The notes below the pieces were generated by a model. It saw nothing but the letters and a program-made list of their open reading frames with translations. It searched no databases and was not told the DNA's origin. A stretch of 64,000 nt of DNA from Microvirga terricola (lineage in GTDB: Bacteria > Pseudomonadota > Alphaproteobacteria > Rhizobiales > Beijerinckiaceae), in NCBI RefSeq assembly GCF_011777495.1, contig NZ_JAATJS010000003.1, forward strand, positions 620,001-684,000, read 5' to 3'. The position numbers and the translations under genes were made by a program. Positions 15,936 to 19,722 of the stretch are shown here, in pieces; position 1 is the stretch's first letter; each line of letters begins with the position of its first letter.

Positions 15936-16580
15936 TTATTTTGGCGAGCGCAGAGAGCCTTCGGCGGACCAGGCGTTAGTGAAAACCACCTTGCCACCTT
16001 CGAGCCGTGCGCGGCCTTCGCAGATGAGACGCAGGGCCTGAGGATAGAGCGCGTGCTCCTGCATCAGGACGCGCGCTGCGAGCGTATCTTCCGTGTCTCC
16101 GGGGACGACCGGAACAACCGCCTGGGCGACGATGGGGCCGGCGTCGAGCTCCGGCACCACGAAGTGCACCGTGCAGCCGTGCACGAGCACGCCTTCCTCC
16201 AGCGCGCGCTGGTGGGTGTGTGTGCCGCGGAAGAGGGGGAGGAGGGAGGGGTGGATGTTCAGCATCCGGCCCGCCCAGCGCTCCACGAACCACGGCGTCA
16301 GCACGCGCATGAAGCCCGCAAGGCAGATGAAATCGATATTCCGCTCGCGCAAGGAGGCGTCCAGCGCTTGTTCGAAGCTCTCGCGGGAGGAATAGGCCTT
16401 GTGATCGATGGCGAGTGCCTCGATGTCCGCCTGCCGCGCCCGGTCCAGGCCGCCTGCATCGGGACGGTTGGAGAGCACGAGGGCGATCTCGGCGGGGAAA
16501 TCCGCGGCATGGGCGGCCTCGATGAGCGAGACCATGTTCGAGCCGCGCCCGGAGATCAGAATGGCGATGCGACGGGTCAT
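15936..16580 (-). CDS. purN: phosphoribosylglycinamide formyltransferase
   Basis: Third step of de novo purine synthesis: it formylates GAR with 10-formyl-tetrahydrofolate. It has 214 residues. The substrate loop ISGRGSN is near residue 10. The catalytic Asn-His-Asp set is in NIHPSLLPLFRG and in HFVVPELDAGPI. Its ATG shares one base with the purM stop (TGATG), so the two are translationally coupled, the usual purM-purN order. The C-terminus (AWSAEGSLRSPK) is slightly longer than in E. coli. Confidence 0.97.
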   Translation of the reverse strand: MTRRIAILISGRGSNMVSLIEAAHAADFPAEIALVLSNRPDAGGLDRARQADIEALAIDHKAYSSRESFEQALDASLRERNIDFICLAGFMRVLTPWFVERWAGRMLNIHPSLLPLFRGTHTHQRALEEGVLVHGCTVHFVVPELDAGPIVAQAVVPVVPGDTEDTLAARVLMQEHALYPQALRLICEGRARLEGGKVVFTNAWSAEGSLRSPK

Positions 16581-17653
16581 CAGAGCGTCAGGCTGCCGGA
16601 GGTTTTGACCGGTTCGCCATCCTCATGCGCGATGGTCTCGCCGATGTGGATGGGGTTTTCGCCAGCGTCCCGCAGGCTCGCCATGACGGCGTCGGCCTTG
16701 TCGGCGGCCGCGACCACGATCATGCCGATGCCGCAATTGAAGGTGCGCAGCATCTCGGCCTCGACCACGCCGCCGGTCTTGGCAAGCCAGCCGAACACGG
16801 GCGGGACGGGAATGGCGTTAAGATCGAGCCGCACGCCGACACCCGCGGGCAGGACGCGCGGAATGTTGTCGGGGAAGCCGCCGCCGGTGATGTGGCACAG
16901 CGCGTTGATGCCGTCCGTCGCCTTGAGGGCGGCCAGAAGCGGCTTCACGTAGATGCGGGTGGGGTCGAGCAGGGCCGCGCCGAGGGTGCGGCCCGGCGCG
17001 AAGGGGGCAGGAGCGTCCCAGGCGAGGCCGGACGCCTCGACGATGCGGCGCACCAGAGAAAAGCCGTTGGAATGGACGCCTGAAGAAGGCAGGCCGATCA
17101 AAACGTCGCCGACCTTGACCTCCTTCGGCAAAAGCGTGCCGCGCTCCGCCGCGCCCACGGCAAAGCCCGCAAGGTCGTAGTCGCCCCGGGCGTAGAGGCC
17201 CGGCATCTCCGCCGTCTCGCCGCCGATCAGCGCGCAGCCCGCAAGGCGGCAGCCTTCGGCGATGCCCTTGACGATGTCGACGCCGACGGAGGGCTCCAGC
17301 TTGCCCGTGGCGAAGTAGTCGAGAAAGAGCAGGGGCTCCGCGCCCTGCACGATGATGTCGTTCACGCACATGGCCACAAGGTCGATGCCGATGGTGTCGT
17401 GAATGCCGGTATCGATGGCGATCTTGACCTTGGTGCCGACGCCGTCATTGGCGGCGACCAGGATCGGGTCCTTGAAGCCAGCGGCCTTAAGGTCGAACAG
17501 CCCGCCGAACCCGCCGATCTCGGCATCCGCGCCGGGGCGGCGCGTGGCGCGCACGAGAGGCTTGATCTGATCGACCATCGCATTGCCCGCGTCGATATCG
17601 ACGCCCGCTTGCGCATAGGTCAGGCCGTTCTTCAGTTTCTCGGTCATCGGCAT
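16580..17653 (-). CDS. purM: phosphoribosylformylglycinamidine cyclo-ligase
   Basis: Fifth step of purine synthesis (AIR synthetase): ATP-dependent ring closure of FGAM. It has 357 residues. The N-terminal pattern [23 protein letters not shown], the ATP site region [14 protein letters not shown], and the motifs [12 protein letters not shown] and [16 protein letters not shown] are all present. The start is ATG 17653 (MPMTEKLKN), with an alternative ATG at 17647. It is coupled to purN. Upstream on the same strand are two tandem secreted-protein genes, the nearer one frameshifted. Confidence 0.97.
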
Positions 17654-17785
17654 ACCCCGTGTTGCTGGGGCAGTAAGGCGAGAGGGGGCCGGAAGCAAGG
17701 GGCATTGCGCCGCTGAGGGGGTATTCCTGGGGGGCGGGTCCTGAGCTCCTCCCTAAAGGGGAAGAGGCGCTCGCGAGCTTTTTGC

Positions 17786-18414
17786 CTAAGGCCGTGGCGC
17801 CGCTAATTGTGCGATATAGCGCTCATAGAATGAGCGAGCTCTACCAGAAGCGCCTTCCTTGTTGGATGTTGTGTATTCTATTTCAATTACTTTGTTTTGG
17901 GTTGGTGTTGCAAATTTGAACAGTTCATACTCGGTTGCTTCAGTTGTATATGAATAGTGTATATATGTTGTTTTTCCAAGTATTGGCTGTCAATGAGGCG
18001 AAATCTTAATTCTGGGTTCAACATAGATCTTAATTCCAGTTCGCGGCGCGCGAATTCCGATGCATATTTGGCAATATCAAGTGTGTTTTCTGGCGCTTTG
18101 CTTAAAGCAAAAAACTTTTGTTCGTATAAGTTGATCTTAATTTCGGCTAATTCAACATCTTCACGCTTATAAAGAACACCGAAATTCCGACCGTGCCGGA
18201 CACACGTGTACTCGCGCATCTTCTCGCGCCGGAGGCCATTGAGCTCGTCCGGAAACTGGAAGTCTTCGACAACGGACGAGGATTCCATCTCCTCAAAGCC
18301 TTTGCCTCGGCATGCCTCCGCAGGCGCAAGCGATAGCGCCAACAGCGGAAGAGCGAGGCCTGCGATGAGGCCGAGGCGGGCAACGGAGCGTCCGGGCATG
18401 GGAATGAAACGCAC
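17786..18414 (-). pseudogene. frameshifted gene for a secreted protein, paralogue of its upstream neighbour
   Basis: Starting from the TTG at 18426 or, better placed for a GAGG, the GTG at 18414, the frame encodes a signal peptide (LAGLALPLLALSLAPAEA-C) and a domain like the next gene (FQFPDELNGLRREKM against FPFPDAISGHARGQM). The frame ends at 17887 in a meaningless tail (MNCSNLQHQPKTK). Shifting to the -1 frame near the T5/A5 run at 17971-17975 gives GKTTYIHYSYTTEATEYELF, KVIEIEYTT and RARSFYERYIAQLA, stopping at 17786. This matches the C-terminus of the paralogue (FVKIRYSTP and KFRDDYFSRLKSL). One base is therefore missing: pseudogene, assembly error or, less likely, programmed frameshift. 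Confidence 0.75.
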
Positions 18415-18422
18415 GAGCTGCC

Positions 18423-19028
18423 TCAAATAGACTGCTGATCGCCGCGCTGTTTCGGCTGGGGAAGGGATTTCAGGCGAGAAAAGTAATCATCCCGGAATTT
18501 CGTCGCCGTCTTTTCGGCCTCCTTCTGCTGGGGCGTCGAATAGCGGATCTTCACGAACTTGCCGCCAGCAACGGTCACGAAGGCGAAAGAGGCGAGATTG
18601 ATGCTGTTGACCGTATAGGATGTCGCTGCGGAGGCAGTCTTCGCGTTGGTCGTCACTTTTTTGACGGCAAGATTTTTGATCCGGCCGATTTCGCTCATGG
18701 TCTGGATTTCGCGCAGGACCGTAGCCAGCTCTTCCGCAAGATCCGAGGGCCTGGCTGAGGAGAGATCCTTCTCCCGGTCATAGACGTAGATGTCGGCCCA
18801 GCCGGATTGGCTCTTGTAGCGCACGCTGAAGCCGAAGCCTCCCGGCCCCGGAAACCGCTGCATCTGCCCGCGAGCGTGACCACTGATCGCGTCCGGGAAA
18901 GGGAAGCCATCGATTGTGTCAGAGGATTCTTGCTGGACGCTCGATTGCGCCCAGGCGGGCGCGGATGAAAAGGCGGAGGCCGAGAGGGCCAGAATAGCCC
19001 CAAGAAGGATGAAAGCCCGGCCGATCAT
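18423..19028 (-). CDS. secreted hypothetical protein (intact paralogue)
   Basis: A 201-residue exported protein. The signal peptide is about residues 1-27 (FILLGAILALSASAFSSAPAWA-QS). The mature part contains DGFPFPDAISGHARGQMQRFPGPGGFGFSVRYKSQSGWADIYVYD, a helical middle (LATVLREIQTM) and a C-terminal strand-helix part (FVKIRYSTPQQKEAEKTATKFRDDYF). The start is ATG 19028, preceded by GAGGG; the open frame extends further up without signal-peptide logic. Its stop TGA overlaps the possible start of the downstream paralogue. The function is unknown; the tandem arrangement suggests duplication. Confidence 0.8.
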   Translation of the reverse strand: MIGRAFILLGAILALSASAFSSAPAWAQSSVQQESSDTIDGFPFPDAISGHARGQMQRFPGPGGFGFSVRYKSQSGWADIYVYDREKDLSSARPSDLAEELATVLREIQTMSEIGRIKNLAVKKVTTNAKTASAATSYTVNSINLASFAFVTVAGGKFVKIRYSTPQQKEAEKTATKFRDDYFSRLKSLPQPKQRGDQQSI

Positions 19029-19191
19029 GGTGCCCTCGCATTTTTCGAATGAGATAACGTGAGAATGGATGAGGTCGCGGGAGCGGGCAAGCGGCTCCAC
19101 CCGGAGCGGGCGGCGCTTCCATCGCCCTTATCCCCAGCCGTCCCCAACCTGACATTGAACTTGGCAGTCCGAGACGCCATCATCCCTACCG

Positions 19192-19722
19192 ATGACCATT
19201 CCGAACTTCATCACCATCGCCCGGCTCATCATCGTTCCGCTTGTCATCGTGATGATCATGCAGCAGCGATGGGAGACGGCTTTCATTCTGTTTGTGGTGG
19301 CCGGCGTCTCCGACGCCATCGACGGCTTCATCGCCCGCAATTTCAACATGCAGAGCGAGTTCGGGGCCTATATCGACCCCTTGGCCGATAAGGCTTTGCT
19401 GGTGTCGATCTATGTCTCGTTGGCCATCGTCGGGGCGATCCCCGGCTGGCTCGCCATCGTCGTCGTCTCGCGAGACGTGATGATCGTGTCGGCGGTGATG
19501 CTCTCTTGGGTCATGAGCCGTCCGGTGACGATCAAGCCGCTTCTCGTCAGCAAGCTTAACACCCTGGCGCAACTGGCCTTCGCGGCCTATGCGCTGGCAG
19601 CCAATGCCTACGGGGTCGACCTTGGCGGGTTCGATGAGGTGGCCATGCTGGTTGTCGCCGCCTTGACCGTCGCCTCTGCCGGTGCCTATCTCGGAGGCTG
19701 GTTGCGACATATGTCGAGTTGA
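19192..19722 (+). CDS. CDP-alcohol phosphatidyltransferase family protein
   Basis: Integral membrane enzyme of 176 residues that joins a CDP-alcohol or CDP-diacylglycerol to an alcohol, as in phosphatidylglycerol-phosphate or cardiolipin synthesis. The signature D-x2-D-G-x2-A-R-x8-G-x3-D-x3-D is complete: Asp41, Asp44, Gly45, Ala48, Arg49, Gly58, Asp62 and Asp66. About five membrane helices are predicted. The exact acceptor is uncertain, so I give no gene symbol. It begins a tightly packed series with the PerM-like, hdaA, ppk and ppx genes. Confidence 0.92.
   Translation: MTIPNFITIARLIIVPLVIVMIMQQRWETAFILFVVAGVSDAIDGFIARNFNMQSEFGAYIDPLADKALLVSIYVSLAIVGAIPGWLAIVVVSRDVMIVSAVMLSWVMSRPVTIKPLLVSKLNTLAQLAFAAYALAANAYGVDLGGFDEVAMLVVAALTVASAGAYLGGWLRHMSS

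Follow-up and report, generated by a model that had tools for sequence, protein, structure and literature searches.

Frame transitions in prokaryotic genes were surveyed by Antonov et al. in 2013 (PMC3711429). For frame breaks that are validated by BLASTp but are not clustered, that study expects a sequencing error and not an indel as the cause. It also lists seven A-rich slippery heptamers, and it reports transcriptional slippage for runs above 7 A. The locus described below resembles the classes set out in that text in having one frame change with both parts of the gene still recognisable, an intact relative elsewhere, and the standing of an accessory gene, and nothing in it goes beyond the ordinary. 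Among the titles and abstract openings listed for Microvirga pseudogenes and frameshifts, none concerned the broken gene, and no paper was returned on Microvirga and PsbP.

The locus lies in the window that was analyzed, a stretch of 64,000 nucleotides from Microvirga terricola (contig NZ_JAATJS010000003.1, positions 620,001 to 684,000). It holds two tandem genes for paralogous proteins that are predicted to be secreted, one of which is intact and one of which is broken in its reading frame (Table 1).

Table 1. Coordinates of the features at the locus, given in the numbering of the window unless a contig handle precedes them
Feature	Position	Strand	Details
Broken gene, open reading frame	17887-18426	-	179 aa from TTG at 18426; TAA at 17889-17887
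Broken gene, in-frame 5' part	17971..18426	-	signal-peptide-like N-terminus and family core
A5/T5 run, likely frame-shift site	17971..17975	.	T5 on the + strand
Out-of-frame tail of the open frame	17887..17970	-	27 residues (QHIYT...PKTK) and TAA stop
Family C-terminus in the -1 frame	17786..17977	-	TAG at 17788-17786
Intact tandem paralogue	18423..19028	-	201 aa from ATG; stop in range
Lineage-specific insert (approximate)	17735..19111	.	between purM and the CDP-alcohol phosphatidyltransferase-like gene
purM-like gene	16580..17653	-	likely start ATG 17653; ORF listed from TTG 17698
CDP-alcohol phosphatidyltransferase-like gene	19192..19722	+	other flank
M. zambiensis WSM3693 orthologue	L003:1492-2121; also L030:3001-3627		209 aa, single frame

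The reading frame is broken once

From its likelier start, an ATG at 18399, the broken gene reads for 143 residues up to the switch of frame. It begins with a hydrophobic N-terminus that was called signal-peptide-like by eye, and on this basis the product would probably be exported. The break in the frame and the presence of the family C-terminus in the second frame were observed directly. In the -1 frame, stops occur at a TGA (first base 17992) and at a TAG (first base 17788) with none between them, and for 63 consecutive codons without a stop the probability is 0.035 in sequence with the same first-order composition. The 68 codons of this frame from 17989 to the stop include one CTG and some ATA, ATT, and ATC codons but no ATG, GTG, or TTG, so the C-terminal part cannot start alone from a common start codon.

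Similarity to intact relatives was assessed by testing each alignment score against 2000 shuffles per comparison. The second-frame C-terminus scored 76 against the intact neighbour (shuffles with a mean of 27.0, sd of 4.6, and maximum of 48) and 53 against the orthologue from M. zambiensis (mean 25.2, sd 4.2, maximum 48), and in both comparisons 0 of the 2000 shuffles were as good. The tail of the open frame scored 18 against the neighbour, where 1291 of 2000 shuffles were as good, and 23 against the orthologue, where 353 were. For the in-frame 5' part the scores were 138 against the orthologue and 90 against the paralogue, neither of which was reached by any of the 2000 shuffles. As is expected of a frameshift pseudogene, the homology of the broken gene to its intact relatives runs on across the frame change, and an intact orthologue exists in a relative, namely in one of the 47 other same-genus genomes. 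It was noted that the second-frame piece had been included in the family profile, and its own match to that profile therefore carries no weight.

Taken together, the pattern of similarity and the stops of the -1 frame place the frame change between about 17992 and 17970. Three runs of at least five A or T bases are found within 17701-18450; the one at the switch is the T5 of the forward strand, and this A5 run is likely the exact site of the shift. The broken gene carries a single lesion, with no in-frame stop before the shift and no second-frame stop after it. At the 5% level, the absence of stops caps the drift since the break at approximately 0.1 substitutions per site; this rough figure is drawn from stops alone and assumes neutral and equally likely substitutions.

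The initial annotation had described one of two tandem paralogues as disrupted by a frameshift, with an unlikely tail on an open frame ending at 17887, a -1 frame that stays open past the A5/T5 run to 17786, and a second-frame C-terminus that aligns with the intact neighbour. Each of these descriptions is borne out by the results above, and the disruption itself is backed both by the paralogue and by the intact M. zambiensis orthologue at the same locus. Two contrary observations had also been named, that relatives share the short PKTK C-terminus or that the second frame lacks similarity to the paralogue, and neither was seen. The description of a single-base frameshift stands as a net shift of -1 (mod 3) in the interval given above, and the wording of a single base is narrower than the evidence.

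Base composition of the broken gene

The GC content of the broken gene is 63.5% in its first third and 40-41% in the remainder, and that of the window is 63.2%. The lowest-GC 380 bp of the whole window lie in this gene (0.384 vs a mean of 0.632), and none of 2080 stretches sampled over 400 kb of the same genome was as low as 0.384. The M. zambiensis orthologue is also low in GC (46.4%, with flanks of 65.5% and 67.2%), so the low GC seems to belong to the gene itself and to predate the break, and not to be a sign of long decay.

It was also noted that the GC step is sharp inside the broken gene (17788-18399), whereas in the orthologue the GC content falls gradually, from 52.6 to 42.1%. One origin considered for this step was a chimera formed with the neighbouring paralogue. 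By the scores given above, the in-frame part is closer to the orthologue than to the neighbour, which lends no support to a recent conversion by the neighbour.

A patchy insert beside purM

The two genes are flanked by what we take, from the protein sequences, to be purM and a CDP-alcohol phosphatidyltransferase-like gene. Of the 48 same-genus genomes searched, purM is present in 47, and the comparison of the locus covered 30 of these 47 (our own and 29 others). No family member was within reach in 28 of the 29 other loci. Both flanking genes were located in 27 of the 29, and 26 of these 27 have no family member between them, M. zambiensis being the exception; the two other loci, in which both flanks were not placed, gave no family match in the stretch that was fetched. 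Immediately upstream of purM, the sequence that begins at 17654-17662 is shared with 28 of the 29 other loci, up to a point between 17700 and 17745; at the opposite end of the interval, a match within 19112-19191 was found in only 4 of the 29. From these flank matches and from the intervals that lack a family member, the pair is placed in a lineage-specific insert with the approximate bounds of Table 1, and its patchy occurrence is a direct observation. In the 26 relatives without the pair, the gap between purM and the phosphatidyltransferase-like gene measures from 137 to 1329 bp, and this variability suggests that the interval is a spot that accepts insertions.

The intact orthologue in M. 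zambiensis, likewise observed directly, sits at the same locus and is flanked by the same two neighbours as the pair in the window. It is similar to the broken gene in lying beside purM, in its identity of 30% in the alignment, in its low GC, and in a CRG motif that follows a signal-like N-terminus. It differs in being full length in a single frame and in having no tandem partner in the fetched stretch.

When the orthologue was used as a query at E <= 0.01, matches were found in 7 of 48 same-genus genomes, our own included. Besides the matches in M. zambiensis and in the genome studied here, five weaker ones were recorded (E from 1.2e-6 to 0.0098; 23-30% identity), and these were taken as probable members of a wider paralogue family. 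Judged on identity and place, the gene is held by 2 of the 48 same-genus genomes. The wider family, including the intact neighbour, was found in 15 of 61 searched genomes (own included), all from this genus, and the family profile at E <= 0.001 matched 6 of 298 genomes drawn from the taxonomic family, all from this one genus of 43. With the open frame as the query, 3 of 61 genomes gave a match: our own, M. zambiensis, and G012. The G012 match (E 0.005) lies in another large frame that contains an internal stop and was taken as chance. A DNA search with the locus in the 48 same-genus genomes returned, beyond our own, only matches of approximately 75-80 bp in three genomes, and when 91 loci were searched for a short DNA pattern taken from the second-frame part, the 11 that matched all belonged to our own genome. 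No relatives of the orthologue were found in viral contigs or in plasmids.

Four family members that were inspected (L006, L007, L025, and L010) lie near genes that are presumably gyrA-like, and three of them (L006, L007, and L025) also lie near genes that we take to be coaD-like and peptidylprolyl-isomerase-like. In genome G005, a second tandem pair of this predicted secreted family (L010 and L020) occurs near gyrA with both frames open. In the members scanned, the family of this one genus has no Pfam or NCBIfam name.

Predicted fold and the part that was lost

The intact neighbour was modelled with AlphaFold2 (pLDDT 75.3, pTM 0.70) from a four-row alignment in which two rows are pieces of the broken gene. 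For the orthologue, modelling gave a poorer result, with a pLDDT of 63.5. A Foldseek search with the neighbour model returned PsbP and DcrB at E 5.4e-4 with TM-scores of 0.33-0.45; normalized by query length, the TM-scores of the first five rows were a modest 0.33-0.43. Structure alignment with VIA-align 2 gave Z values up to 11.3, with DcrB (6e8a; Z 11.3, 109 residues, 2.6 A), CyanoP (2xb3; Z 11.2, 137 residues, 3.4 A), LpqN (6e5d; Z 10.2, 130 residues, 3.4 A), and human Mog1 (5yfg; Z 9.8, 141 residues, 4.0 A). The Foldseek and VIA-align 2 matches lead us to predict a PsbP/DcrB/Mog1-like fold for the intact neighbour, and a shared fold of this kind shows no function. These structural matches share at most 13% sequence identity with the neighbour, whose sequence is matched by no Pfam or NCBIfam model of the group. 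Pfam returned no family at E <= 1 for three stretches of the window or at E <= 5 for three relatives, and NCBIfam returned only two unrelated rows far below their cut-offs. A search of solved structures with the family profile gave one chance-like row, InaD-like, at E 0.26, which was set aside.

The part that the broken gene has lost corresponds to residues 130 onward of the neighbour, comprising strands 131-140, 143-154, and 157-165 and a helix at 168-188. Of the six nearly invariant columns in the family alignment, four fall in the part that is kept and two are lost (I170 and A184 of the orthologue). Because three strands and the C-terminal helix of the modelled fold are missing, the truncated product most likely would not fold.

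Origin of the frame break

We consider it probable that the gene has suffered a recent loss-of-function indel (net -1), and that this low-GC accessory gene is now a young pseudogene beside an intact paralogue. On this reading, the insert that the lineage carries between purM and the phosphatidyltransferase gene holds a tandem pair of genes whose products are predicted to be secreted and PsbP/DcrB/Mog1-like. The downstream, low-GC gene would recently have been hit by an indel at or near the short A run. If a product is made, it would consist of 143 family residues followed by 27 nonsense residues, would be without the three beta strands and the C-terminal helix, and would be non-functional, while the neighbouring paralogue stays intact.

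The main rival to a real indel is a base-calling or assembly error, by which the gene would be intact in the organism and only the draft would be out of frame, through a miscalled homopolymer. We hold this to be a tentative possibility, considerably less likely than a real indel. In its favour, the lesion is known from a single assembly, and the frame changes at or close to an A5 run within the 380 bp of lowest GC in the window. As a lone lesion, the break is also of the singleton kind that would be expected to be an error by the 2013 study (PMC3711429). Against it, most sequencing methods seldom err on homopolymers as short as five bases.

The assembly was also examined for other frame changes. 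ORFs from 400 kb of a relative, G029, were aligned to 464 kb of the assembly, which gave 128 well-covered matches (100,275 bp). A change of frame was seen in 5 of them, and on codon-position GC and position each was put down to a shadow frame, a gene boundary, or an extension upstream of the start. The lack of any clean frameshift among them counts against an assembly error, within a test that spans approximately 100 kb of GC-rich sequence and ORF sets that include non-coding frames, so that fewer than 128 real genes were tested. The reverse comparison gave 2 of 113 matches (90,357 bp) with a changed frame, which were judged likewise and again included no clean frameshift. A coding-model scan of 464 kb of the assembly recorded 70 frame switches, a count that may include real gene boundaries; the model was tuned to GC-rich genes and left the break in the broken gene unflagged, and the scan was given no weight. 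We infer that the lesion is located in the cell and not just in the reads, and that the product of the broken gene is non-functional.

Joining of the two frames into a full-length product, by programmed -1 ribosomal frameshifting or by transcriptional slippage, appears very improbable. The second frame does begin close to a short run of A, and the surrounding RNA can be drawn as a hairpin of -11 kcal/mol; this fold looks unremarkable (z -1.32, with a fold at least as good in 19 of 200 shuffles). The open-frame context, TTG GAA AAA CAA, is none of the seven listed heptamers, and the run of 5 bases compares with the runs above 7 A for which transcriptional slippage is reported (PMC3711429 for both). 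The only orthologue that was found reads in one frame, and the frame break is thus not conserved. A low-frequency slippage at the A run that needs no listed slippery motif and yields both truncated and full-length secreted protein in a regulated manner is, in our estimation, just as improbable.

Switching of a phase-variable surface protein on and off, through replication slippage in the A run, is similarly hard to credit. The protein is predicted to be secreted, and many of the large frame-transition clusters in the 2013 study encode cell-surface or secretory proteins, but poly-AT stretches were counted there from at least 7 bases (PMC3711429) and the run here has 5. By eye, the orthologue has no such run at the corresponding place. 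Least probable of all is that the short product is a true functional protein and the second-frame similarity a relic, since, for all the length of the open frame (179 aa from TTG) and the four of six nearly invariant columns that it keeps, the tail scores fall inside the shuffle range, the lost part holds two of these columns as well as three strands and a helix of the predicted fold, and the sole orthologue is full length.

Among the causes that the initial annotation had put forward, slippage is unlikely; of the other two, we lean to a real indel, although the evidence does not separate it from an assembly error. If the indel is real, an accessory gene of low GC and patchy occurrence would have become a further young pseudogene, an ordinary event that raises no wider question. 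For annotation, the 179-aa product should carry a frameshifted label, and the intact neighbour may be described as a predicted secreted PsbP/DcrB-like protein that has no Pfam or NCBIfam name.
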